A stretch of 64,000 nucleotides of DNA, taken from assembly GCA_002779605.1 (NCBI GenBank), contig PEWE01000002.1:186001-250000 (forward strand), in the 5' to 3' direction. A program made the position numbers and the translations under genes. The notes under the pieces were generated by a model. The model was given only the letters and a program-made list of their open reading frames with translations, did no database searches and was not told the DNA's origin. How positions within the stretch are numbered: the stretch's first letter is position 1; each line of letters opens with the position of its first letter. This document shows positions 48,351-62,440 of this stretch, one piece after another. Source of the stretch: Zetaproteobacteria bacterium CG06_land_8_20_14_3_00_59_53 (GTDB lineage: Bacteria > Pseudomonadota > Zetaproteobacteria > Mariprofundales > Mariprofundaceae).

Positions 48351-49688
48351 TCATTGTTTCTCCAACGTGGTGAGCAGCTCAACCACCTTGTCCGACAGCG
48401 GCCCGATGGCTTCGACATCAGCCACGGCTCCGGCCTTGTCTCCCTTGTTGAACCTGGCCACGGCCGATTTTGCCAGCCGGTGCACATCGGCATGCGGGTC
48501 CATCAGCTGGGTGAAGCCGGGCATATGCCCGTAATGTTCCCTGCCGGCTGTATCGTACCACTTGCCCAGCCTGCACTGATGATGATCGGTGACCTCTTCC
48601 ACGCGGATCTCGCCGCGGTCCAGAATCATGTCGATCAGGCGCTTTTTCCACAGCATATGGTCGGACTTGGCCAACTGGATCACCGCATCGCTGATCTTCA
48701 GCGTGGCGAAACTGGCCAGATCCTCACGCACCCGGTTACCCAGTTGGTCTGTCATATCCAGCGAGTCCTGTGCAAGATGTTTCAACGCATCGGCTTCCTG
48801 CGCCGTGGTGGCCACACCACCGGCGATCTCGGCACTGGCCAGTGACTGATCCTCGGCGGCATGCGTGATATCGCGAACCCGCTCGTCCACCATGCGCATA
48901 TTGCCGGCGATGTCGTTCATCGCCTCACCGGATACAGCCAGTGCGGCAGCCGCCTTCTGCACGGTATCGGAGATGGTCTCGATGCTGTTCACAGCAGTGC
49001 TCACTGTATGCTCGATGGCCTGGCTCTTCTCGGAGATATTGTCCGTCACCTGGCGTGTCTGACGGGAGAGCTCCTTGACCTCCCCGGCCACCACCGCGAA
49101 GCCCTTGCCAGCCTCACCGGCGCGCGCCGCCTCGATGGTCGCGTTCAGGGCCAGAAGATTGGTCTGATCGGAGATCTTCTTGATGGTTCCGAGCAACTGC
49201 CCGATCTCGCCGGAGATGGTTTTCAGCTGATCCATCTGCTGGATCGCAGCCATCATCTGGCTGCTGGTCTCGGCCATCACCTGCACGGTCTCATCCATCG
49301 AGGAGTGGCCAGTGGCGACCGATTCGGTGGCGGACACACTCAATTCGCGCACATCGCCCGCCCGTTCGGCCATCAGCTTCACCGTGGCACTCATCTCCTC
49401 GGTGGCGGCAGCCATGGATTCCGTCCGCTCCCGCACCTCCGAGGCCGAGGCATCCAGCCGCGCCATCACGATCGTGCTTTCGAATCCGGACACGGCCATC
49501 TCCACCTTGCCCTTGAGCTCCTGAAGCATCAAAGCATCCAGATGCTGCATCACCGCATTCACCTGCCCGGCCAGCGCGTTGCCTGGCGGCATACGCCATT
49601 GAAAATCCCCGTTCAGGATGGCCTCGAAAAAGCCGTCCAGTCCGGATACAGACTGACTTTCCGTCACATCTAGCGGATTCGCACTCAT
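48351..49688 (-). CDS. soluble methyl-accepting chemotaxis protein with C-terminal CZB domain
   Basis: 445-residue chemoreceptor without transmembrane helices, so it signals in the cytoplasm. The signalling hairpin tip is around 185-205 ([23 protein letters not shown]). The last 110 residues form a chemoreceptor zinc-binding domain: H344 in SDHMLW, C372 in HQCRLGKW, H399 and H403 in DPHADVH, the four-residue zinc set. CZB receptors are known to sense zinc state or hypochlorous acid. Its start overlaps the PilZ stop and it is the last gene before the terminator. Confidence 0.92.
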
Positions 49689-50065
49689 GACTCGCTCCTT
49701 GCCGCCGCAATGCCGAGGTGATCAACCAACTCTTGTTCGGCGGATTCCTTTGATGCCGCATTCAGTAAAATAATCTGCTTCAGGTGGTCGTAGCTCTCGC
49801 AATACAGGCCGGTGAAGTGCACCGCGAAGCCGTCATCGTCACAGCGCGCAACAAGCCCCTGCGCATGGATGACCAGCGGCTCGGTCTCGCCCAGATAGAC
49901 ACGTACCTCGCAGGCATCGTTGAGACTCACGGCAAGCGACGAGCGCAGATAGATGCCGTTCATACTGATATCGCTGATATCGCCGGGCACGGTATGGCCG
50001 TTCACATCCACCTCGGCACGGGTGGAGAACTGCACCCGGGTGAAATCACGTTCGTTGTCGCTCAT
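49685..50065 (-). CDS. PilZ-domain protein
   Basis: 126-residue single-domain c-di-GMP receptor. The N-terminal arginine region ([15 protein letters not shown]) has one RxxF-type arginine rather than a clear RxxxR, and the second motif [12 protein letters not shown] fits D/N-x-S-x-x-G. AAGGAG precedes the ATG at 50065, so the longer frame to 50185 is discarded. Its location within the che operon links c-di-GMP to the chemosensory output. Reduced c-di-GMP binding is possible given the first motif. Confidence 0.82.
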
Positions 50066-50096
50066 GGATTCATCTCCTTGTCGGTCACAGCGCCCA

Positions 50097-50912
50097 TCAT
50101 CGCGCCACCAGCCGCCACAGGTTGCGGTTGCCGAAATGCACGGCCTCCCAGCGGGATTTGTTGCCCTTGGGTATCTCGGCGGCACCGGTCACCAGATATC
50201 CGCTGTCCTTCATGCATGCGGCCAGATTGTCGATCACCTGCAGACGCGCCCCGACATTGAAATAGATCAGCACATTGCGGCAGAACACGATGTCGAACGG
50301 CCCCTTGCCACGCATCTCGGAGGAAAGCGTCGGCGAAACCAGATTGGCCGGCCCGAAGCGCACCATATTCCTTATCTCCGGCTTCAGACGCCAGTTGGAA
50401 CCATCCTGCTCGAAATATTTGATCAGCAGTCTGGCCGGCATGCCACGCTGCACCTCCATCTGGGTATAGGTGCCGCCGGCCGCCTTGGTCAGCGCCTGAT
50501 CGGAGATATCGGTGCCTGCGATCTCCACCCTTTTCCCCTTTCCGCCCAGTGCCTCCGCAGCGATCATGGCGATCGAATACGCCTCCTGTCCGGTGGACGA
50601 TGCCGCCGACCAGATGCGGACCGGCGAGGAAGCACACTGCGGCAGCATCACATCGCGCAGGGCATCGAAGGGATACTGGTCGCGGAAGAACAGGGTCTCG
50701 TTGGTGGTCATGGCATCCACCACCTGTCGTGCCAGACGGCTGTTGCGGTCTTTCTTCAGACGGTCGGCAAGCTCGTTCAGCGTGGCGATACTGTGTTCCT
50801 TGAGCAGCGGTTGCAGGCGGGTACGCAGCAGATACATCTTGCTTTCCTCCACCACCAGGCCGCTCTGTTGCAGCAGAAAATCCCGCATGAACTCAAACTG
50901 CGGCGTTTGCAT
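50097..50912 (-). CDS. cheR: chemotaxis protein methyltransferase CheR
   Basis: Adds methyl groups from SAM to receptor glutamates. The 271 residues comprise an N-terminal helical domain (FEFMRDFLLQQSGLVV, TTNETLFFRD) and the SAM-binding domain with WSAASSTGQEAYSIAM, AGTDISDQAL, FDIVFCRNVLIYF and TGAAEIPKG. The ATG at 50912 lies inside the cheB end (20-base overlap); the open frame to 51062 shadows cheB. Confidence 0.94.
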   Translation of the reverse strand: MQTPQFEFMRDFLLQQSGLVVEESKMYLLRTRLQPLLKEHSIATLNELADRLKKDRNSRLARQVVDAMTTNETLFFRDQYPFDALRDVMLPQCASSPVRIWSAASSTGQEAYSIAMIAAEALGGKGKRVEIAGTDISDQALTKAAGGTYTQMEVQRGMPARLLIKYFEQDGSNWRLKPEIRNMVRFGPANLVSPTLSSEMRGKGPFDIVFCRNVLIYFNVGARLQVIDNLAACMKDSGYLVTGAAEIPKGNKSRWEAVHFGNRNLWRLVAR

Positions 50913-51978
50913 ACTGCACCCCCGTGGCTGCGGATGTTCTGGCGCAGCGGGCCATGATAGCTGCGGAAATCTGCTCCAGCGGCAGGACTTCGTGGGCGGC
51001 ACCGCAACGCACCGTCGCCCCCGGCATGCCCCACACCACACTGGTTTTTTCATCCTGCGCAATCACATGTCCGCGCTTCTCTGCGATGGCCTTGGCACCG
51101 GCGGCACCATCCTCACCCATGCCGGTAAGAACCACGGCCAGCGTATTCAGGCGCGGGGCAAGGGCAGCCAGCGAGTAGAACATCGGATCGACCGCCGGAC
51201 GGCAATGATGCACGGGCGGTGCCGCACTCAGACGACAAACGATCTCCACACCCTCGCGTTGCAATTCGAGATGGCTTTCGCCGGGGGCAACATAGATATG
51301 CCCGCGCTCCAGCGTCATACCGTCCACCGCCAGATGGCAGGAAAGCGCGGTTTCCTTCTCCAGCCTGTCGGCCAACGGTTGCAGAAAGAGCTTGGGCATA
51401 TGCTGGGTGACCACGACAGGTACGGGAAAATTGGCCGGCAGACTGCCCAGCACGGCATGCAGGGCCGCGGGCCCTCCGGTACTTGAGCCGATGGCCACCA
51501 GATCCGGTCGGCCTGCAGCACTGCTGCCGGAGGAGCGTAGTGCAGGTTTCGGACTGACTGTGGCGAGCGGTCTCCTGCGTCTGGATTTACAGGCCGCCAT
51601 GATGCGTGGATACAGGGCGTCGATCAGGAACGCCACCGGGTCTCCATCGGACAACTGCGGCTTGAGGATGAAATCGAAGGCTCCGGCATCCAGTGCCTCC
51701 ACGGTCCGCTCCGCCTCGCTTTCGTTGCCGCTGGTCAGCACGATGGCCGGCAGATCCGGAAAATCCTTTCTCAGGGTGTGCAGCACCTGCATGCCGTTCA
51801 TGCGCGGCATGGTCATATCCAGCGTCATTACATCGGGTTTGAGCTCGGCGATTCTGGCCAGCGCATCCTCGCCGTGTCTGGCCTCGCCTGCCACCTCGAC
51901 ACCCTCCATGCCTGCCACGCACTTGCGCAGGAAGTGCCGGAACACCGGCGAATCATCGGCAATCAGCAGGCGGATCAT
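50893..51978 (-). CDS. cheB: chemotaxis response regulator protein-glutamate methylesterase CheB
   Basis: Removes receptor methyl groups when phosphorylated by CheA. The receiver domain (1-120) has IADDSPVF and the phospho-Asp in VMTLDMTMPRMNG. The esterase domain has the catalytic triad in GSSTGGPAAL (Ser), TQHMPK (His) and LTGMGEDGA (Asp). It has 361 residues, full length. The start overlaps the cheY stop (ATGA). Confidence 0.95.
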   Translation of the reverse strand: MIRLLIADDSPVFRHFLRKCVAGMEGVEVAGEARHGEDALARIAELKPDVMTLDMTMPRMNGMQVLHTLRKDFPDLPAIVLTSGNESEAERTVEALDAGAFDFILKPQLSDGDPVAFLIDALYPRIMAACKSRRRRPLATVSPKPALRSSGSSAAGRPDLVAIGSSTGGPAALHAVLGSLPANFPVPVVVTQHMPKLFLQPLADRLEKETALSCHLAVDGMTLERGHIYVAPGESHLELQREGVEIVCRLSAAPPVHHCRPAVDPMFYSLAALAPRLNTLAVVLTGMGEDGAAGAKAIAEKRGHVIAQDEKTSVVWGMPGATVRCGAAHEVLPLEQISAAIMARCARTSAATGVQYANAAV

Positions 51979-52358
51979 TCCTTGTACGCCACGCCGAGCA
52001 GATCCAGCTTGCTCTTGATCAGGGAGGCATCGAAAGGCTTCATGATGTATTCGTCGGCCCCCGCCGACAGTGCCTTCATCATCGACGGCATGCTGGCTTC
52101 GGTAGTCACCATCACCACCAGTGGCGATGAGGAATGCTCGGGCATTTCCCTGAGCCGCACCAGAAAATCGTAGCCGTTCATCACCGGCATATGCCAGTCG
52201 AGCATGATCAGCCGCACATCGGGATTCTCGAGGATCGCCTGCATGGCCTGCTGTCCGTCCTCGCAGGCGATCACCTCGAAACCGAGAGATTGCATGATCT
52301 TTCCCAGCGAGACACGCACCACACGCGCATCGTCCACCACCATCATCTTCTCAGCCAT
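51975..52358 (-). CDS. cheY: chemotaxis response regulator CheY (first copy)
   Basis: Single receiver domain of 127 residues: VVDDARVVR, the phospho-Asp in IMLDWHMPVMNG, a Thr in VMVTTE and KPFD with the conserved Lys. It resembles CheY proteins that act as phosphate sinks or motor regulators; which applies cannot be told. It lies between cheW and cheB in the operon, alongside a second cheY-like gene at 55939-56316. Confidence 0.92.
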   Translation of the reverse strand: MAEKMMVVDDARVVRVSLGKIMQSLGFEVIACEDGQQAMQAILENPDVRLIMLDWHMPVMNGYDFLVRLREMPEHSSSPLVVMVTTEASMPSMMKALSAGADEYIMKPFDASLIKSKLDLLGVAYKE

Positions 52359-52380: not shown

Positions 52381-52917
52381 TTAGTGTAAAACAACCGGTG
52401 TCTTTTTCCCGTCCGCAGATCGGGATAGCTCCTTGCCCTGCGGCTCCTGAGCTGCGCAGGGCAGCGACAGGGCAAGCAGACGGTCCACATCCAGCATCAC
52501 CGTGATATGTGTATCGTATTTCAGCACGCCTTCACCGATCTGCTGCCAGACGGCATGCAGCGTGTCAGGAACCTTTTCGAAGCGGTTGTAATCGATGGCC
52601 GATACCGCCCCTACCTGATCCACCACCAGCCCGACGTCCTCGCCCTGCCGGCTCTTCACGATCACCACATGCACATGCCGCTCGGCTTCAGCGGCCTGCA
52701 GACCCAGAATGCGGCGCACATCCACCTCGCTGATGATACGTCCGCGCAGATTGATCAGACCGAGCACCCCGTCGGGAGCCAGCGGCATCGGGGTCAGCCG
52801 CTGCTGGGTGATGACCTCCAGCACCTGTGCGACCGGGAAGGCGACCCACTGCCCTCCCACGCGGCAGCTGAAGCACTCCGAGATACCCCCTGCCCGGGGT
52901 CTCGCGGCAGCATTCAT
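52381..52917 (-). CDS. cheW: chemotaxis coupling protein CheW
   Basis: Adaptor that links receptors to CheA, 178 residues. Conserved parts are WVAFPVAQVLEVI, GVLGLINLRGRIISEVDVRRILG and VGLVVDQVGAVSAI. The ATG at 52917 overlaps the cheA stop (ATGA) and has GGGAGG in front; an earlier start at 52971 would lie within cheA. The polar tail (QEPQGKELSRSADGKK) is extra to the core. Confidence 0.93.
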   Translation of the reverse strand: MNAAARPRAGGISECFSCRVGGQWVAFPVAQVLEVITQQRLTPMPLAPDGVLGLINLRGRIISEVDVRRILGLQAAEAERHVHVVIVKSRQGEDVGLVVDQVGAVSAIDYNRFEKVPDTLHAVWQQIGEGVLKYDTHITVMLDVDRLLALSLPCAAQEPQGKELSRSADGKKTPVVLH

Positions 52918-55913
52918 GATGGCCTCCCGCCGACCAGAACCGGTCGTTCGAATACTTGTGGTGGATTGCATTCAACCGATTCATGTCCGTGCAGCCTGCC
53001 CAGACACTCGGACAGGCCCTGCCGGTCCATCTTGCTCAGCACAGTATGGAAGTGCCGTCGGTGCTCGACATCGTAGGCATCAGGCGGCGCGGAAGAGATA
53101 GCGATCACCGGCACGTCCGCCAACCGCGGCTGGCCACTGATCCATTCGGCCAGTTCGTAACCGTTCATGCGCGGCATCTCGATATCGGTCAGCACGACAT
53201 CGGGCACCTGACGGTCAAGGATCTCGCATGCCTCCTGTCCATCCCGGGCATACCAGACCTCGTAGGCCATGCTCTCCAGCACAGGGATCAGCATGGTGCG
53301 GAAAAATGGTGCATCCTCGGCGAACAGGATGGTTCTCCGGCCTTCCTCATGCGCATTACCGCCGGAGGTGAACCATTCAGGATCGGCAAGCCTGAGCAGT
53401 TCGAACACATCGATCACCTCGGTGGACTGCTCATGGATCACCGTGGTACCGAGGAACATATCCTCGCTGGATTTCATCTCGATGCGCAGCGGGGTTTGCA
53501 GGATATCCTCCACCTCATCGACATGCAGGCACATGCGCTTGCCGTTGTCGGCGATGATCAGGCAGCAATCCTCCTCCGTCTGCACCACTTCCCCGCCCAG
53601 AATGCGGTTCCAGCGCAGCACGGGAATCACATCGCCGCGATACTGCAACACCTCGCGACCGCCCGAGCGTTCAATGCTGCCCGGCGGCAGACTTTCAAGT
53701 CGCTCCACCAGCATCATCGGAATGGCATACAGCTGATTCAGGCCGCGGAACACTAACGTGTGCTGCATCTCCTCGCTGTCCACCCTGCCTCCGTCGAGCC
53801 CGGCCTCATCCTGTGCCAGCTCTGCTTCTGCGGACAATTTAAGCGACTGCACCACACCGTTGCACTCCAGAATAGGCACCACGCTGCCATCGCCCAGAAT
53901 GCTGCATCCGCCGAATACCGGCACATCACGGAAATGCATGCCCAGCGGCTTCACCACCAGTTCCTCGGAACCGATGATATCGTCCACCAGCAGCCCGATA
54001 CGGCGATTACCGGCGTGCACCACAACGATCGAACCACCCGCGTCATCCACGGCAGGCATACCGAGGCTGTCGGTCAGGCGCACCACCGGCAGCAGCTGGC
54101 CGCGCAAGCGGAAGAAGCGCTGCCCGGCGATAGCGCACCAGTGTTCCGAACCGGCATCTGCGGCAAGCAGTTCCTGCACGCTCATCTGCGGGATGGCGAA
54201 CATCTGGGATCCGGCGCTGACCAGCATGGCAGAGATGATGGCCATGGTCAGCGGGATGCGGATACGCAGCGTCGTGCCGTTACCCGGCACGCTGTGGATC
54301 TCCACGCTGCCGCCGGCCTTTTCGATGGCATTCTTCACCACATCCATGCCCACACCGCGACCGGAGATGTTGCTCACCTGCTTGGCTGTCGAGAGACCTG
54401 CATGGAAAATCAGTTGCAGGGCGGCAGCATCGCTCATGGCATCCGCCGCATCCTGCGTGAGCACACCCATATCCACGGCCTTGGCCTTGACGCGCGCGGC
54501 ATCGATGCCCGCACCGTCGTCGCGGATCACGATCAGGATCGAGCCCGCCTCCTGGGCTGCAGTCAGCGTCAATGTGCCGGTATCCGGTTTACCGTTCTGC
54601 ATGCGTTCGGACGGAAGCTCGATGCCATGATCGCAGCTGTTGCGGATGATATGCGTCAGCGGATCTTTCAGGGCTGCCAGAATGGTACGGTCCAGCTCGG
54701 TTTCCTGTCCCTCCATCTGCACATTGATCTTCTTGTTCAGCTGCCGGCCCATATCGCGCACGATGCGCGGCACCGTGCCCCAGATGGTCGAGATCGGCTG
54801 CATGCGGGTTTTCAGCAGGCGATCCTGCAGGCTTTCGGTGATGTGGTTGATATCGCGCGACAGCGGCACCAGCGACTTCATGACCTCGGCCGCATCCTGC
54901 ACCTGCATGGCGTGTCGCATGCCGCCACCGGCCCTGGACACCACCTGCAACAGACGGTTGCGTGTCAGCACCAGTTCGCCGACCTGGTTCATCAATTCAT
55001 CCAGCACAGCCACATCCACACGGATGGTTTCGGCGGCCTTGCCGGCCTGCGCTGTCTCCGGAGGTGTTTCCTGTACCCCGGCCTTTTTGGCCACGACTGC
55101 GGGTTTTTCAGTGGCCACAGATTTCGCAGGGGCTGCTGTTTCCTCGGATACCGGGGGTTTCCCGGAAGGGACTTCAGCGGATTCGCCGGTCTCCGGCGCT
55201 ACCCCCTCAGGCTTGTCGGGTGAAGGGTCCGGCTGCGCTCCAGTGGCCAGCGCGGCGAATTTCTTGGCCACGCCGAGCAACTTCAGTGCCTGCGGCGCGG
55301 CAATACCCGGCACCTCCTTGAGCACATTGAATCCTGCCTGCAACACGGCTTGCGGCGTACTCAAGCCGGCCCCGTCCAGCGCTCCGCGGATGACTTCGAA
55401 ATCATCCAGCCAGTCGCCTTCATCAGTGCTGCTTTGCACTATTTCCTGCTGTACTTCTGCGGGCTCGGCAGCCGCGACAACCCTCCCGGCCGGCGCTTCA
55501 TCGTCAACAGGCGCTCCCGCACCGCCACTCCCGATCAGACGCTCGGCAGCATTCAGCCTGCGGATCAGGGCACTGTGATCGACATCCGGCTCCTGTCGGT
55601 TGGCTTGCAGCTCATCGAGAATCACCTGGATCGCATCCGCACATTCAAGCAGCATGGAAACGATTTCGGGGGAAGCCGGATAGCGCGTCGAACGCATTTT
55701 CCCCAGCACGTTCTCACCGGCATGCGCCACCTTCTCAAGCTTCGTCAGGCCGATGAATCCGCAGCTTCCCTTGACGGTATGCACGGTACGGAAGATGGCA
55801 TCGAGCAGCTCCGTATCCTCAGACGCGGCTTCAAGGCTCATCAGTTGCTGTTCGATGGCCGCCATATTTTCATTACTTTCGACCAGAAACTCGCCGAGCA
55901 GTTCTTCATCCAT
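52914..55913 (-). CDS. cheA: hybrid chemotaxis histidine kinase CheA with second CheW-like domain and receiver
   Basis: 999-residue kinase. Order: Hpt domain with H45 in TVHTVKGSCGF, a Pro/Ala/Glu-rich linker (about 130-315), a dimer domain (VAVLDELMNQVGELVLTRN), HATPase (HIIRNSCDHGIELP, DDGAGIDAARVK, GRGVGMDVVKNAIEKAGG), one CheW-like domain (AIISAMLVSAGSQMFAIP), a second CheW-like domain (TLVFRGLNQLYAIPMMLVERL) and a C-terminal receiver with the Asp near 908 in VVLTDIEMPRMNG. GGAG precedes the ATG. Classical CheA has about 650-700 residues, so the second CheW and receiver are real additions. Confidence 0.94.
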   Translation of the reverse strand: MDEELLGEFLVESNENMAAIEQQLMSLEAASEDTELLDAIFRTVHTVKGSCGFIGLTKLEKVAHAGENVLGKMRSTRYPASPEIVSMLLECADAIQVILDELQANRQEPDVDHSALIRRLNAAERLIGSGGAGAPVDDEAPAGRVVAAAEPAEVQQEIVQSSTDEGDWLDDFEVIRGALDGAGLSTPQAVLQAGFNVLKEVPGIAAPQALKLLGVAKKFAALATGAQPDPSPDKPEGVAPETGESAEVPSGKPPVSEETAAPAKSVATEKPAVVAKKAGVQETPPETAQAGKAAETIRVDVAVLDELMNQVGELVLTRNRLLQVVSRAGGGMRHAMQVQDAAEVMKSLVPLSRDINHITESLQDRLLKTRMQPISTIWGTVPRIVRDMGRQLNKKINVQMEGQETELDRTILAALKDPLTHIIRNSCDHGIELPSERMQNGKPDTGTLTLTAAQEAGSILIVIRDDGAGIDAARVKAKAVDMGVLTQDAADAMSDAAALQLIFHAGLSTAKQVSNISGRGVGMDVVKNAIEKAGGSVEIHSVPGNGTTLRIRIPLTMAIISAMLVSAGSQMFAIPQMSVQELLAADAGSEHWCAIAGQRFFRLRGQLLPVVRLTDSLGMPAVDDAGGSIVVVHAGNRRIGLLVDDIIGSEELVVKPLGMHFRDVPVFGGCSILGDGSVVPILECNGVVQSLKLSAEAELAQDEAGLDGGRVDSEEMQHTLVFRGLNQLYAIPMMLVERLESLPPGSIERSGGREVLQYRGDVIPVLRWNRILGGEVVQTEEDCCLIIADNGKRMCLHVDEVEDILQTPLRIEMKSSEDMFLGTTVIHEQSTEVIDVFELLRLADPEWFTSGGNAHEEGRRTILFAEDAPFFRTMLIPVLESMAYEVWYARDGQEACEILDRQVPDVVLTDIEMPRMNGYELAEWISGQPRLADVPVIAISSAPPDAYDVEHRRHFHTVLSKMDRQGLSECLGRLHGHESVECNPPQVFERPVLVGGRPS

Positions 55914-55938: not shown

Positions 55939-56316
55939 TTAGAACAACATGCCGCCGACCATCTCGACCAGCGCATCCGGTTCGAAGGGCTTCACCAGCC
56001 AGGCCGAAATGCCTGCATCATGGCCCACCGATTTCTTTTCCTCGCCCGATTCGGTGGTCAGCATGACGATAGGCGTCTGCTCGTAGCCGGGCGTGGCGCG
56101 GATCGCCTGCACCATGCTCAATCCGTCCAGATTGGGCATGTTCAGATCGGTCAGAATCAGATCGAACGGGGTGGCGGCCGTCTGCACCTTGCTCAGCCCT
56201 TCGGCACCGTCACGCGCCTCCTCCACCTCGAACTCCACAGCCGCCAGCGTGCGCTTGACGGTGATTCTCACCATGGTCGAATCCTCGACCACCAGTATTC
56301 TCGGTGCTCCGCTCAT
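55939..56316 (-). CDS. chemotaxis response regulator CheY (second copy)
   Basis: 125-residue single receiver domain: VVEDSTMVR, the phospho-Asp in LILTDLNMPNLDG, the switch Thr in VMLTTES and VKPFEP. The form is that of CheY partners of hybrid CheA systems. The ATG at 56316 overlaps the stop of the channel-like gene (ATGA) and has AGGAG upstream; the longer frame to 56382 is discarded. The overlap ties its synthesis to that of the channel-like protein. Confidence 0.92.
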   Translation of the reverse strand: MSGAPRILVVEDSTMVRITVKRTLAAVEFEVEEARDGAEGLSKVQTAATPFDLILTDLNMPNLDGLSMVQAIRATPGYEQTPIVMLTTESGEEKKSVGHDAGISAWLVKPFEPDALVEMVGGMLF

Positions 56317-59300
56317 AGCTCGCTCCTCAGAACCTGACGTTCTTCTTCCATGACATAGCGTTTCTCGACTTCGTTCTTCCACAGCGGCTGGCCTTCCTTA
56401 GCCGCTGTTGCGGCCTGACCCCAGTCGTTCAGACAGGTTTCGACGTTCTTCAGCCTTTGCATCACCCGGTCGATCGCCTGGAAATCGGTCAGGGCCGCCA
56501 TGATGTCGTCGGCCAGTATCCCCTCCACATCACGGTCCATCGCATCGGTCAGCTTGATCAGGCCATCCTCGGTACTGGCATTGAGCAGGGCGAGCGCACC
56601 TTCCACCTGCTTCTTCAGTACCATGAGCAGCCGTTTATCGGCCGATTCCGGCCAGACTGAGCTTTGCATCACTTCACCCTCCTTGGCGATTTCTGTCGGC
56701 AAACCTTCTTCTATCAGGTGGTCTTCCGGCGGACTTTCTTCCTGTAAACGACCTGCATCCATCTCCTCAGCAGCCGTTTCCATCGTATCTTCAACCGCTA
56801 CTTCCGTTTCCACATGCGCATCTTCATGCAGCGGGCTTTCCGGCTCTTCCTGCTGCGGAGGTGTTTCATAAACGGGAGCAATGTCCGTGCCAGAAGCGGG
56901 AAGCTCCGCAGGCGGCACGCCACCATCTTCCTGTTTATCGGCGGAAACCGGCGAATCTTTTGCAACGGGTTGCACGGCAGGGATAGCTACCGGAACAGGG
57001 GGAGCAACTTGTTCGTCCGCTTTGTCGCGCAACACGCCTCTGCGACAGAACAGCAGGCTTGATGCATGCAGCGGCGCATCCATGGCCTCGGCGGGTGAGC
57101 CGCCCATCAGATGCATGCGGCTGCCGCTTTCATGCCCGCCCAGCGGGAAGATCGCATCGAGTATGCTGAACATGTCACGCCGTCCGGGCTCCGCATCGGG
57201 AAGCAGGTAAGCAGTGAGCATCCAGCCTCGTTTCCATGCCTCGCGATACACCTGCGACCAGCTTGGCGCACCGTCGGCGAACAGACGCTGCACCGCGACA
57301 TCCTCGATGATCACCGCATCGCCGAGCACCACCTGCATGAAATCGTAGGCCACAGTATCCTGCCTGAGATGCTCCGGGCGGGCATGATGCAGCACGCGAC
57401 TGAGCAGTTGGCGTGCCATGAATACATCATGGAAGCTGTCCGGCGAACCGACATCGATATCCAGCCGCGAATATCTCCGGGCTGCGCTGCGCAGTGACGG
57501 CACATTCGCCGCATCGCGCGGCAGCACCATCAGCTTCGGCGGCGTCCACCATTTCACCCTGGACTTGCGGGCATCGAGCATGCGCGCCACTTCATGGAAC
57601 CACATCTCCAACAGCGAGTCTTCACCGCCTGCCGCATCCTCAGGATACAGCATGATGACCTTGCACCCCTTGAGGTAAGGCATCAGCACCTCGGCACTGA
57701 AGCCGTACCATGGCAGCACATTGGCTTCCAGCTCGCAGCCGGTGCGCGCTGCAGCCCGTTCGGCAGCCGCCTGCATGCGTTGCTCGCGCAACCGCAAGCT
57801 GTTTTCATCGCCCGGGAAGAGCACATGCACCGCCAGTTTGTGATGCCGCTCGGCCATCTCCTCCATCATGGCCGGCAGTCCGTCGTGCCAGCCCATGAAG
57901 ATGATGTTGATATCCCACGTCTCGGGCCAGTTGAAATCCTTCAGAGCCGGCTTTCCCTGCCGGACAGCGGCTTCACCGGCACCCATCGCATGGCGCATGG
58001 CGGAGGGCCAGAGCAAGGGGTCGCGACCGATACCCACTACATCCGTCAGCCTCAATCCCTCTGCAAAATCCCCCATGTCACCGAACAGGCGGAACTCGCC
58101 ATCTTCGCTGCGCCCGGCGAGAAGATTGATGCCCTGCTCGAAGCAGCGCGTCAGCCAGTACTCCAGCGGCACCCGTTGCCCGTCATGCTCCAGCATCGGG
58201 CCAGAGGCATCACCATGCACTGTGACATCCCAGGCCACGGCATACAGGCCCGGCTCGCCGTTGACCACATCGAGCATGCGCGCGCCGAGTTCAGGCATAT
58301 GCACGCAGTGATGCATCTGGTAAAGCATGCGGGCCTTGAGCGATGCCGAATCGAGCACATCCATGCCCAGAGAATCACGGTACACCCCGAGGATATCTTC
58401 GGGCAGTGCTGCATCGCAGACCACCACGCCTGGAGAATCCTCCGCTTCAGGCAACGCGCCATCCCTGATCAGCGCATGCATATCGGCGATCGAAGTACGG
58501 TCCTGCCAGCCGCTGTAGCGCGACTGGAACACGAAGGAAAATCGCACGCCCGACAAGCGGAAGCGGCGCATCAGTCCGCGCTCACCTCTTTCTGCCTGAC
58601 GTACCGCCAGCCAGCGACCGATGGATCGCGCCCCGCTACCCACCGGCCCGAAGAATATCCATGCCGAGGCGAAGGAACGCCGCATGCGGGCGCACATCTG
58701 ATCGAACACACGCAGTACCGGCATCGCCTGCTTGCTCCAGCCTGCCACCAGCAGGGATTCGCGCGCCGAGAGCGGGCTGTTGGCAAGTTGCTCAAGCAGG
58801 AAATGCATGACATTCGAACCCAGCCCGACGAACAGCGCGAAAAAGAACACACCGGACAACACGATGCCCATGGTGACCAGCGCCAGCATCGGTGAAAATG
58901 CATCCGCCGGGGCATTGCCCGGATCGAGCAGGAATCGGAAGCTGTACAGGATCACCTGCCAGGGGGCGTAATCGGCAGCGTTGTTCACATCATCCCCGCT
59001 CAAGTCCATGCCGGGATACAGATACAGCACGGCGACGGCGGTGAGCGCCATCAGCAGCACGAACACCCCGGCCAGCATGGCCAACTCCTTGCGCACCTCA
59101 TCCAGGCTTCCCACCTTGAGCAGTGCCGCCCAGAGATTACCCATCGGATTGAGCATCACCAGAAAACGTACGGCTCTGAGCAGCGCCCAGCCCGGCGAAA
59201 GCACGGGAAGCACACCAAGCAGCGCACAACTGGTCAGCAGATCAAGGCCTGCAAAACCCAACTCGGCTCGCCTGCGCGTGCCGTCTTCCAGCGTGTGTAT

Positions 59301-60155
59301 CAGGGCAACTCCACGGCATGCCGCTTCCAGAATCAACACCATGCCGGCGAACAGGGCGATATCCGGCATCAGTACGGCCAGCGCCGCCAGCGTCAGCACG
59401 CCCATCGCATAGGGCATCGAATAGATCAGGGTCTCGTAGGTCAGGAAGCGGAAGATGCGCAGCATGCGCAGCATGTACATGCCGCGCAACAGACGGGCCA
59501 GACGAAGGTACATTCCGCCTGCCAGCACCCCTGCCGGCTGCATGACTGCGAATAACAAACTGAGCGTGGCGATGGCATCGAGCAGCAGGAAGCCCAGTTC
59601 GGCACGATTGGCGAACTGCCGCTCGCGCTGCAACCAGAAGCGCAGGCCCAGTTCCACAGTGAAGAATACCGCCAGAGATGCGAGCAACACGGCATAGTGC
59701 TCGAAGGCGCAAAGACCGAGTGCCACCACGATCAGCACGGCATAGCGCGGATGCGAGAACACCCGTTCGCCGAGCAGCAGCCACTCGCGCCGGGTCCGCG
59801 TCAATCCATGCGTCCCGCCCGCTTCGTCCGCAAGCGGAACGCTGATGGCTGCATCCGCCACAGCTGCGGAGGCCACCACGGAATGCTTTGCTGCAGCTTG
59901 AGTGCCTTCAGTGTCGCTTGTGGCTGCGGCCGGCGACGCAGGCGGTGGTCTTGCAGCACCGGTCGCAGCAGGCTGTCCGGTGTCAGTTTCTTCAGCGACT
60001 GTTTTCTCAGAATCAGGCTGTTCAACAGCGGTTTGCTCAGGGATAAGATGCTCAGTAACGGGTTGTTCGCAACCGCTCATTTCAGAATCAGCCGGACTTG
60101 TAACCTCCGATTCCGGTAGCGGTTCATCCCCTGTCGCTGACGAATCCGTGCGCAC
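56313..60155 (-). CDS. dual voltage-sensor-like, CASTOR/POLLUX-like ion channel protein with acidic tail, in che operon
   Basis: 1280 residues from a GTG with AGGAGG seven bases before it. Order: acidic, low-complexity N-terminus (1-115). First helix bundle (135-240) with an S4-like helix, arginines at 218, 221, 224, 230, 233 and 236. Second bundle (245-345) repeating the RAELGF..LD segment (RAELGFLLLD at 184-193, RAELGFAGLD at 296-305). Pore-like helix-loop-helix (357-457). Cytoplasmic LLVAGWSKQAMPVLRVF (468-484) and IIFMGWHDGLPAMMEEM (751-767), both like the RCK-type motifs of CASTOR/POLLUX channels. Glu/Pro linker (1041-1168). Helical end (1169-1280). It lies between a receptor and cheY, overlapping the latter. 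Family assignment is from motif memory; ion and gating are unknown. Confidence 0.7.
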   Translation of the reverse strand: MRTDSSATGDEPLPESEVTSPADSEMSGCEQPVTEHLIPEQTAVEQPDSEKTVAEETDTGQPAATGAARPPPASPAAATSDTEGTQAAAKHSVVASAAVADAAISVPLADEAGGTHGLTRTRREWLLLGERVFSHPRYAVLIVVALGLCAFEHYAVLLASLAVFFTVELGLRFWLQRERQFANRAELGFLLLDAIATLSLLFAVMQPAGVLAGGMYLRLARLLRGMYMLRMLRIFRFLTYETLIYSMPYAMGVLTLAALAVLMPDIALFAGMVLILEAACRGVALIHTLEDGTRRRAELGFAGLDLLTSCALLGVLPVLSPGWALLRAVRFLVMLNPMGNLWAALLKVGSLDEVRKELAMLAGVFVLLMALTAVAVLYLYPGMDLSGDDVNNAADYAPWQVILYSFRFLLDPGNAPADAFSPMLALVTMGIVLSGVFFFALFVGLGSNVMHFLLEQLANSPLSARESLLVAGWSKQAMPVLRVFDQMCARMRRSFASAWIFFGPVGSGARSIGRWLAVRQAERGERGLMRRFRLSGVRFSFVFQSRYSGWQDRTSIADMHALIRDGALPEAEDSPGVVVCDAALPEDILGVYRDSLGMDVLDSASLKARMLYQMHHCVHMPELGARMLDVVNGEPGLYAVAWDVTVHGDASGPMLEHDGQRVPLEYWLTRCFEQGINLLAGRSEDGEFRLFGDMGDFAEGLRLTDVVGIGRDPLLWPSAMRHAMGAGEAAVRQGKPALKDFNWPETWDINIIFMGWHDGLPAMMEEMAERHHKLAVHVLFPGDENSLRLREQRMQAAAERAAARTGCELEANVLPWYGFSAEVLMPYLKGCKVIMLYPEDAAGGEDSLLEMWFHEVARMLDARKSRVKWWTPPKLMVLPRDAANVPSLRSAARRYSRLDIDVGSPDSFHDVFMARQLLSRVLHHARPEHLRQDTVAYDFMQVVLGDAVIIEDVAVQRLFADGAPSWSQVYREAWKRGWMLTAYLLPDAEPGRRDMFSILDAIFPLGGHESGSRMHLMGGSPAEAMDAPLHASSLLFCRRGVLRDKADEQVAPPVPVAIPAVQPVAKDSPVSADKQEDGGVPPAELPASGTDIAPVYETPPQQEEPESPLHEDAHVETEVAVEDTMETAAEEMDAGRLQEESPPEDHLIEEGLPTEIAKEGEVMQSSVWPESADKRLLMVLKKQVEGALALLNASTEDGLIKLTDAMDRDVEGILADDIMAALTDFQAIDRVMQRLKNVETCLNDWGQAATAAKEGQPLWKNEVEKRYVMEEERQVLRSEL

Positions 60156-60166
60156 GGCAGAGCCTC

Positions 60167-62440
60167 CTACCGGCGCAATGACCCTAAAAAATCAGTCACG
60201 CGCTGATTCAGATTCTCGGACTTCGCCCGCATTTCAACTGAGACATCGAGCACCTCGTTGGCAGCCCTTCCTGTATCCGCGGCCGCTTCCTGAACGCCGC
60301 CGATGGCTTCGGTCACATTATGTGTGGCCTCGCTGGCATACTGGGCGCTCTGTGCAATCTCCCGTGTCGCCTGATTCTGCTCATCGGCTGCAGCCGAGAT
60401 CATTCTGTTGATCTCGTTCATCTTGCCGATGACATCGCCGACATGCGCAATCGCTTCGGCAGCCTGCTTGCTCTCCGACTGGATGCCGGAAATCTGCTGC
60501 GAGATGCGTTCGGTGGCCTGAGCTGTCTGATTGGCAAGCTCTTTCACCTCGCCCGCCACAACGGCAAATCCACGTCCTGCATCACCCGCACGCGCCGCCT
60601 CGATGCTGGCATTGAGTGCCAGCAGATTGGTCTGCTCGGCAATATCGGTAATCACCTGAATCACATCACCGATCTCCTGAGAAGCCTGCGCCAGCTTCTG
60701 CATGATTGTATTGCTCTTTTCCGCCTCCTGCGCTGCATTACCAGACATGTGTACTGCATCGCCCACCTGCCGGGTGATCTCGGCAATTGAAGCGGACAAT
60801 TCCTCGGCCGCACTGGCCACAGTTGCCACATTATGCGCCGCCTCGTTCACATTTTCGGTTACAGCATTGGCCTGCGCCGTGGATTCCTCCGCCATCGAGG
60901 ACAGTGTTTCCGAGGAAGCCTGCATCTGCCCGCTGGAAGTGATGAGCTCCTGAACCAGGCCGCCGATATGGCTCTCGAAGGCTGCGGACAGCTCAACCTC
61001 CTCAGTGATATCATCCCATTGCACAAGGATTTTGTCCCATTCGCCACAAGCATTATCCAGAGCAAATGCAGAGAACCGGATGTACCTGTCGTCCGCCTTG
61101 AATTGCGATGTTGCAGGAAGATTGGATCTGTCGGCCAGAAACTGCCGTTGATGAGCCGGATTTTTATGGAAAATATCGATGTTCTTGCCAACCAGATCAT
61201 CCGATTTGCAAGGCAGAAATCCTTCAATACGCTTGAATATTTTCCGGGCCGACGGATTGAGATACTGAATGGTCAGTGTTTCCGTATCGGCCATCATCAC
61301 CGCCTGGGGAAGCAATTCGGTCACCTGACCAAGCGTGAATGCCTTCTCCACACTTAACTTCAGCTTCTCGCACGAATCGACAAGCTTGTTTACAATTCCT
61401 GCCATGCGCACATCGGATATATCCACCGAAACATCGCCCTCATCCAGTGCATCCAGCGCAAGCACAATCCTCTGCAGAGGTCTCAGAATCGTTTGGGCAA
61501 TCCACTGCATCAGTGCAACACATACAACCAGAATAAGAATCAGCATCAGCCAGTAAATCCATTTCGATGAAGAGTGAACTGCAACCGACTGGGCGCCATA
61601 ACCATCCATCAGGCTGGCGAGACTGGAATCTAGCGCCTTGAGCGATGGCATCAGATTGTCGGAATGGTGCTCCTGCAATTTCGCTGATTTATCGAGCATT
61701 TCGCGACTGGTGACAAGATAAGCCATGAACCCACCCTTATATGCGCTCATTTCCTCTGCAATTCCGCGCTTGGCAGGGCGGCTCAACGGGGATGCTTCAA
61801 GAAGCTTGTTAAATTTGGAAATTTCCGCTTCCCATGCTACAACGTTCTCCGGCTTGCCGCGCAGCATGTAATCCTTCTCGTGGCGACGGAAATTCAGCAT
61901 GGAAATGATCAGATCATCCCTGCCTGCTTGCCTGATCTTCGCCTCGACCGAATGCACTGCAGTGCGCAATACACCCCTCTGCCCTTCGCTTTCGCTAAGC
62001 CCCAGCTTGATACGATCGGATTTCACCGTCTCCCATATTCCGGCAATCAAGGCCAATTCGCGACCGATCGCTTCTGAAGCAGTGCGTGAGGATGCATCCA
62101 GCAGTTCACCCGTAAGCTTGCGGTTAATCTCTTGCGCGCTCGCCAGCAAGTCCGTGACTTTCTCGCCAGTCTGAGAGTCACCATTGACAAAAACCTGTGT
62201 GAACGGGCCGATCATTCCTGATATGCCGTAAAGGTTATCCAGATCTTCCATGTGATTCGCGGACTTTGCATCCAACGAATCGATGGCCTCAAGATTGTAC
62301 AACGTCAACTGGTATACGGTGCCGACAGCCAGCATTCCCAGAGCGACAAGCCCTGATATAAGCCAGAACCTTTGCCTTATACTGACCTTCTCAAATCCTA
62401 TTAATGGGGCATGAAGCTCCGTCTGCATGTTATCGCCCAT
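60167..62440 (-). CDS. methyl-accepting chemotaxis protein, membrane type with HAMP and PAS
   Basis: 757-residue transmembrane receptor. TM1 lies at about 22-42, then a long periplasmic helical domain of the HBM type (note NFRRHEKDYMLRGKPENV), TM2 at about 303-325 (WIYWLMLILILVVCVALMQWI), HAMP, a PAS-like domain (about 385-490: LPQAVMMADTETLTIQYLNPSA, WDDITEEVE) and the signalling hairpin ([24 protein letters not shown]). The ATG at 62440 has GGAGG upstream; the open frame to 62572 is probably leader. It is the first gene of the che operon and probably supplies the main input. HBM domains bind small acids in known cases. Confidence 0.92.
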   Translation of the reverse strand: MGDNMQTELHAPLIGFEKVSIRQRFWLISGLVALGMLAVGTVYQLTLYNLEAIDSLDAKSANHMEDLDNLYGISGMIGPFTQVFVNGDSQTGEKVTDLLASAQEINRKLTGELLDASSRTASEAIGRELALIAGIWETVKSDRIKLGLSESEGQRGVLRTAVHSVEAKIRQAGRDDLIISMLNFRRHEKDYMLRGKPENVVAWEAEISKFNKLLEASPLSRPAKRGIAEEMSAYKGGFMAYLVTSREMLDKSAKLQEHHSDNLMPSLKALDSSLASLMDGYGAQSVAVHSSSKWIYWLMLILILVVCVALMQWIAQTILRPLQRIVLALDALDEGDVSVDISDVRMAGIVNKLVDSCEKLKLSVEKAFTLGQVTELLPQAVMMADTETLTIQYLNPSARKIFKRIEGFLPCKSDDLVGKNIDIFHKNPAHQRQFLADRSNLPATSQFKADDRYIRFSAFALDNACGEWDKILVQWDDITEEVELSAAFESHIGGLVQELITSSGQMQASSETLSSMAEESTAQANAVTENVNEAAHNVATVASAAEELSASIAEITRQVGDAVHMSGNAAQEAEKSNTIMQKLAQASQEIGDVIQVITDIAEQTNLLALNASIEAARAGDAGRGFAVVAGEVKELANQTAQATERISQQISGIQSESKQAAEAIAHVGDVIGKMNEINRMISAAADEQNQATREIAQSAQYASEATHNVTEAIGGVQEAAADTGRAANEVLDVSVEMRAKSENLNQRVTDFLGSLRR

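Follow-up and report, generated by a model that had tools for sequence, protein, structure and literature searches.

A channel-like protein fixed in the main chemotaxis operon of Zetaproteobacteria carries a CheY-linked C-terminal domain

Bacterial chemotaxis is understood as signalling from receptors to a kinase, with ion channels, if involved at all, assigned a role outside the pathway. The plant channel LjCASTOR lacks the TVGYG filter, is Ca2+-selective with the filter AD265S(A)GNHA, and its current is abolished by D265N (PMC6697748). For the bacterial voltage-gated channels of the NaVBP/NaChBac type, a role in motility and chemotaxis was reported (Ito et al. 2004, as related in passages of PMC549065 and PMC4225499). 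Prokaryotic Cys-loop channels with MCP-N/Cache domains were proposed to be channel-type chemotactic receptors (in a passage of PMC549065). We analyzed a stretch of 64,000 nucleotides from Zetaproteobacteria bacterium CG06_land_8_20_14_3_00_59_53 (assembly GCA_002779605.1, contig PEWE01000002.1, positions 186,001 to 250,000), hereafter the window. A gene on its minus strand (56313..60155; 1280 aa, GTG start, TGA stop) encodes a protein with the architecture of a Slo/CASTOR-type channel, and this gene is a fixed component of the main che operon across species.

An earlier note, made from the letters of the window alone, had described the product as a channel-like protein with two voltage-sensor-like bundles inside a chemotaxis operon. 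This observation was confirmed, and the interpretation, that the channel may feed membrane potential or ion flux into CheA/CheY, was partly supported. The minus strand, the filter sequence, an EF-hand-like loop, the C-terminal domain, an internal start and a flagellar-operon paralogue were absent from that note. Pfam and NCBIfam gave no match to the 1280-aa protein at E<=1, and a PDB sequence search with the single protein gave none at E<=10. The reading as a channel was supported by the AlphaFold model, by fold matches to Slo1 and LjCASTOR, and by a CASTOR-like D-P-G-N/A filter.

The AlphaFold model of residues 105-1065 (predicted local distance difference test, pLDDT, 80; predicted template-modelling score, pTM, 0.75) contains ten membrane helices. 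These are arranged as one S1-S4 bundle and another that is S1-S4-like, then S5, the pore helix and S6; two RCK domains of the Rossmann type come after them. The first bundle (residues 136-237; 59445..59750, minus strand as for all window features below) was assigned from the model and from conservation. It carries the voltage-sensor signature, with FF..E..LR in S2 (F-F-T-V-E in this protein), Asp in S3 and repeated Arg in S4 (59445-59516). The predicted S4-like arginine helix was found as described: six Arg occupy residues 218, 221, 224, 230, 233 and 236, every third position with one gap at Met227. Among orthologues and paralogues, the Glu of S2, the Asp of S3 and the Arg of S4 show little or no variation. 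Because these residues hardly vary and the che-type gene is conserved at 41-63% identity across many related genomes, the observation lies far beyond chance. The second bundle (residues 247-349; 59109..59417), with its helices present in the model, is a true internal duplication of the first, as had been proposed from a repeated segment (hhalign profile-profile comparison, probability 95.5%, P = 1.5e-8).

The suggested comparison with two-pore channels was not borne out, since each chain has one pore and two sensor bundles. S5 (residues 352-379; 59019..59102) was located in the model, and its region aligns with KvAP S5-S6 at E 0.12. The pore helix and filter (residues 398-414, PWQVILYSFRFLLDPGN; 58914..58964) were placed by the model and the alignment. 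The S6 inner helix (residues 422-459; 58779..58892) was placed by the model and aligns with the MthK inner helix. The filter is not of the TVGYG type of K+ channels; it reads D411-P-G-N, in which an Asp is followed by x-G-N as in CASTOR. D-P-G-x was found in 27 of the 28 homologues that cover the filter, x being mostly N or A. Between S5 and the pore helix lies an EF-hand-like 12-residue loop recognized by conservation (residues 384-395, DLSGDDVNNAAD; 58971..59006). In 29 aligned homologues its first Asp is invariant and its last Asp is present in at least 90%, often within the pattern DxNxDGxxxxxD. This loop is a candidate metal site. Given the CASTOR-like Asp filter and the EF-hand-like loop, our best guess is that the channel conducts divalent cations.

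The same parts could also serve a non-conducting scaffold, that is, a receptor or transporter using voltage-sensor and RCK parts for signalling. The filter is unlike every well-studied K+, Na+ or Cav filter, and several orthologues have DPGA or DPGT, not DPGN. However, the pore helix, the filter Asp-Pro-Gly and S6 are conserved among homologues, and the filter matches the functional filter of CASTOR. We regard a scaffold as the least probable of the explanations considered here, with a chance of about one in eight.

Behind the pore, the two GW motifs of the earlier note were located at residues 468-484 (LLVAGWSKQAMPVLRVF) and 751-767 (IIFMGWHDGLPAMMEEM), each within an RCK-like domain. RCK1 (residues about 466-724, with LLVAGW; 57984..58760) was assigned by the model, Foldseek and the MthK profile alignment, and RCK2 (residues about 746-1039, with IIFMGW; 57039..57920) by the model and Foldseek. 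Profile comparison of RCK1 with RCK2 gave no significant signal of duplication. In the Foldseek search against the PDB, 66 matches were obtained at E<=0.001, the best being human Slo1 (E 1.5e-15), the gating rings of LjCASTOR and MtDMI1, and GsuK. The LjCASTOR gating ring was matched at E 4.5e-14, with a template-modelling (TM) score of 0.65-0.67 by target length. The predicted fold thus has both the voltage-sensor and pore arrangement and a gating ring like that of LjCASTOR. The mark of the RCK-gated channel class, two RCK domains in tandem behind a pore module of the same chain, is seen in the model and in the Foldseek matches. The profile of 29 homologues aligned with the pore and RCK of MthK (E 0.036-0.15) and with KvAP S5-S6 (E 0.12), alignments that are marginal singly and collinear.

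We then turn to the gene's position. As claimed before, the channel gene stands second in a che operon and overlaps cheY, in the order MCP (methyl-accepting chemotaxis protein), channel, cheY, cheA, cheW, cheY2, cheB, cheR and more genes. The TGA stop of the channel gene shares bases with the ATG of cheY1 as ATGA (56313-56316), and the two genes are therefore probably coupled in translation. The order MCP, channel, cheY, cheA, cheW, (cheY2), cheB, cheR is retained in every intact locus. All 32 distinct che-type homologues were located in che operons and formed a single clade with support 100, and most placed paralogues were in flagellar or che loci; homologues were not scattered mainly outside such loci. 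Among 39 Mariprofundaceae genomes at least 90% complete, the channel was present in 19 of the 21 with the orthologous CheA, and the che-type channel in none of the 18 without that CheA (hypergeometric probability about 3e-9, ignoring shared ancestry). In the two genomes with CheA and no channel (G005, G081), the contig stops at that position.

When 84,980 genomes were scanned with the alignment of the channel, 53 loci were found, mostly in Zetaproteobacteria, Mariprofundaceae, Mariprofundus and Ghiorsea, the rest being labelled only 'proteobacterium'. The cultured M. micogutta ET2 and Mariprofundus sp. EBB-1 are among the carriers of the gene. Among 397 sampled Pseudomonadota genomes, all 29 channel matches came from the order to which the window belongs, and about 355 sampled genomes outside this order gave no homologue. 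The host itself is a zetaproteobacterium with a genome of 2.37 Mb, which groups with genomes holding channel homologues. Among open-licence papers, we found no earlier account of a zetaproteobacterial che or flagellar operon that includes a channel.

The channel ends in a further domain (residues 1163-1280; 56316..56669), which follows a long low-complexity linker and is predicted to be helical (pLDDT 77 for the modelled piece). It contains DRVMQ, a DxxxQ motif with its Asp at residue 1229 and its Gln at residue 1233 (56457-56471), and a YVMEEER tail; in the alignment D-R-V-x-Q is invariant and the VMxxE tail, usually RYVMEEER, is conserved. A cheY gene stands directly 3' of the domain in 43 of 46 zetaproteobacterial loci, a count that includes some duplicates; two of the three exceptions are at a contig edge, and in genome G009 cheA comes next. 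The same domain terminates short MCPs (360-440 residues) of other Pseudomonadota, first met in G172 and then in further genomes, with cheY 13-66 nucleotides downstream in nine loci. It is thus an undescribed CheY-linked domain common to the channel and to chemoreceptors of other Pseudomonadota. Since the same type of CheY adjoins two unrelated architectures, CheY is the likely partner of the domain, which most likely binds CheY or phosphorylated CheY (CheY-P).

Other forms of the domain were also observed. An order-level relative (L042:1922-6946) has a channel with three copies of it, then a standalone copy, then cheY. In G009 (L044:10854-13864), an MCP with a CZB domain, a separate gene for the domain and cheA lie downstream of flagellar genes. 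The linkers in L035, L040, L043 and L049 consist of short repeats (VEEQ/VEAQ/VEPK), which seemingly break the assemblies there. Proteins of 190-220 aa located away from che genes in other Pseudomonadota have the same DxxxQ helix and a YxxxxER tail (L201:4198-4767, L204:4559-5143, L210:4143-4748, L211:4306-4980, L217:4107-4682); those read fully end in DDIELF. A weak match in G128 (E 5e-4) is probably due to chance, because its neighbourhood lacks che genes.

A domain tethered to the channel and adjoining cheY would also suit the reverse direction of control, one of the two main alternatives. CheY-P would bind the C-terminal domain and gate the channel, so that chemotaxis alters ion flux or membrane potential. 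RCK gating rings can be moved by cytosolic ligands, which agrees with this idea. However, the short chemoreceptors of other Pseudomonadota end in the same domain, where only a signalling role is possible, and G009 holds the domain as a separate gene in a genome where the channel was not detected. We consider this output role unlikely.

The DxxxQ motif of the domain resembles (L/F)Q-D-L-T-G-Q of CheZ, although an alignment of the two is not established. A single CheA was found in the window's genome, and neither CheZ nor CheC could be recognised there; no search for CheX was made. Homology to CheZ was tried and rejected: hhalign of 20 and then 32 domain sequences, including MCP tails, against five CheZ sequences was not significant, and Pfam gave the domain no match to the CheZ family (PF04344). 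As the homology was tested and not found, the domain is at most CheZ-like in action and not a CheZ.

Possible release of the domain as a free protein was suggested by a putative internal translation start at the ATG at 56667-56669, preceded by AAGGAGGGTGAA (56667..56681, encoding EGEVM). A Shine-Dalgarno sequence lies a few bases ahead of this in-frame ATG; the window sequence is AAGGAGGGTGAAGTGATG. The domain opens with EGE(V/I/L)M or a near variant of it in all single fusions, and the DNA encoding this peptide yields a strong Shine-Dalgarno sequence. This is the strongest before any ATG of the window gene, and among the two or three strongest in other genomes. Standalone genes for the domain in genomes of a sister family (G038-G040) begin at the same Met, and G039 also retains channel-fused copies. 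Apparent standalone domains in G005, G062, G086 and G026 were not counted as free genes, because they are at contig ends and are probably cut ends of fusions. A free C-terminal-domain product from this putative start, which would be about 13 kDa in size, is likely.

Zetaproteobacteria also have a paralogue of about 955 residues, with about 20% identity to the che-type channel and without the C-terminal domain. In many genomes it stands in the order flgC-fliE-fliF-fliG-fliH-fliI-fliJ-(MgtE_N protein)-channel-fliK-flgD-flgE, between the gene of the MotE-like protein with the MgtE_N domain and fliK (L062:7273-10134; also L051, L057, L060 and L064). The window's own genome has it at G000:C27 (L050:7226-9463), where flgC, fliF and the gene of the MgtE_N protein precede it. 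Flagellar neighbours were found for 20 of 35 distinct paralogues by automatic label, two or three of these labels depending chiefly on a gene that is LapD-like. Four paralogues that form a subclade lie beside or near a different che cluster (L170:8965-16813, L169:8962-17313, L163 and L165), most clearly in L170, where the order is channel, cheY, cheA, cheW, MCP, MCP. With the che operon, the flagellar operon and the second che cluster, the channel family is tied to swimming and chemosensing in at least three settings.

The paralogue inside a flagellar structural operon brings in the other main alternative, motor ion supply. The channel would supply or balance motor cations or pH, like NaVBP of alkaliphilic Bacillus; it would lie in the che operon only for co-expression, and the fusion would be a handy membrane tether for a CheY phosphatase. 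The work on NaVBP is in favour of such a role (Ito et al. 2004, as related in passages of PMC549065 and PMC4225499). The fusion to a signalling-type domain, the constant site beside cheY and the further subclade at a second che cluster argue against it, and we give homeostasis about the same small chance as control by CheY-P.

We prefer the explanation that the protein is a Slo/CASTOR-type cation channel with a CheY-acting C-terminal domain, reporting to the single flagellar chemotaxis pathway, and put its probability at about 0.6. The subunits would probably form a tetramer. In each chain, a single pore with an acidic filter of the Ca2+ type accompanies the two voltage-sensor-like bundles, and the two RCK domains would go into a cytoplasmic gating ring. 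Membrane potential, cytoplasmic Ca2+, a nucleotide or another ligand may gate the channel. Its state could reach CheY-P via ion flux, via positioning of the tethered domain, or both. The C-terminal domain may act like CheZ through its DxxxQ helix and C-terminal peptide, and would then be the missing CheY-P phosphatase; the internal start may also release it as a free protein. The flagellar-operon paralogue may do a related job at the motor. Membrane potential would be a reasonable steering cue for a microaerophilic iron oxidiser, which has little energy to live on and is placed between gradients of Fe(II) and O2. A fuller version is more tentative, and we would bet somewhat against it: a voltage- and ligand-gated, probably Ca2+-selective chemosensory channel that senses in parallel to the MCPs, signals to CheY by means of its C-terminal domain and cooperates with the sister channel of the flagellar operon, the bacterium thereby steering by membrane potential or Ca2+.

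Several points weigh against the preferred explanation. The S4 of bundle 1 was modelled at only about 60 pLDDT, and that of bundle 2 is degenerate. Whole-chain Foldseek TM-scores were only about 0.4. The AlphaFold model is a monomer, and the channel is known here from sequence and model. The C-terminal domain obtained no confident PDB fold match from Foldseek and no significant profile match to CheZ, and that it may act like CheZ is argued from a five-residue motif, the gene context, and CheZ and CheC not being found. A synonymous-codon test for a selected Shine-Dalgarno sequence was not significant (combined p = 0.2), because the EGE peptide itself imposes the motif; the internal start is therefore argued from its position, its conservation and the standalone genes.

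The other genes of the operon in the window are as follows. The first is the MCP with HAMP, PAS-like and MCPsignal domains (60167..62440). The channel is followed by cheY1 (125 aa, overlapping the channel gene in translation; 55939..56316), cheA, which encodes the one CheA found in the genome and has a receiver domain at its C-terminus (52914..55913), cheW (52381..52971), the second cheY-like receiver gene cheY2 (51975..52358), cheB (50893..51978) and cheR (50097..51062 as the longest open reading frame, the real start being probably further in). A small gene 3' of cheR (49685-50185) resembles a PilZ-type domain protein by eye.

These results suggest that, in a group of marine iron-oxidising bacteria, swimming is steered or run with the help of an ion channel. 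In one bacterial class, the main che operon has a complete channel as a constant member. This channel is joined to a domain that is found along with cheY, and the flagellar operon encodes a sister of it. Should the channel conduct and signal, the influence of membrane potential or Ca2+ on bacterial chemotaxis would become testable through one gene. A bacterial protein that combines Slo/CASTOR architecture with a filter like that of CASTOR is also relevant to where those channels came from and how they select ions.

Compared with known systems, the C-terminal domain resembles CheZ in having DxxxQ in a long helix after (L/F)Q, with a conserved C-terminal helix beyond a linker, but it has a different tail and is fused to a channel or an MCP. 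The Cys-loop channels with MCP-N/Cache domains belong to another channel family; that proposal came from domain architecture and gene neighbourhood, and the passage concerned describes no link to a che operon. The NaVBP/NaChBac-type channels are unrelated in architecture (six transmembrane helices, no RCK) and, in the passages cited, are not reported to be fused to a chemotaxis domain. MthK, GsuK and KvAP are closer, the pore, inner helix and RCK aligning at marginal E-values and GsuK matching by fold, but the zetaproteobacterial channel differs in filter, number of transmembrane helices and C-terminal domain. With Slo1/BK and Slo2, the top Foldseek matches, it shares a voltage-sensor bundle, a pore and two RCK domains in one chain, whereas it lacks the K+ filter, has a second sensor bundle and shows no detectable sequence homology to Slo. 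The likeness to CASTOR/POLLUX/DMI1 lies in the absence of TVGYG, the acidic filter, two RCK domains per chain and the gating-ring fold (TM 0.62-0.67 by target length). By sequence, no match to the Pfam family Castor_Poll_mid was found, and the homologue profile retrieved no CASTOR chains from the PDB. CASTOR, which belongs to plant nuclear Ca2+ channels, has a predicted total of four transmembrane helices, whereas the zetaproteobacterial channel is a bacterial protein borne by a che operon, with two voltage-sensor bundles, an EF-hand-like turret and a CheY-linked C-terminal domain.

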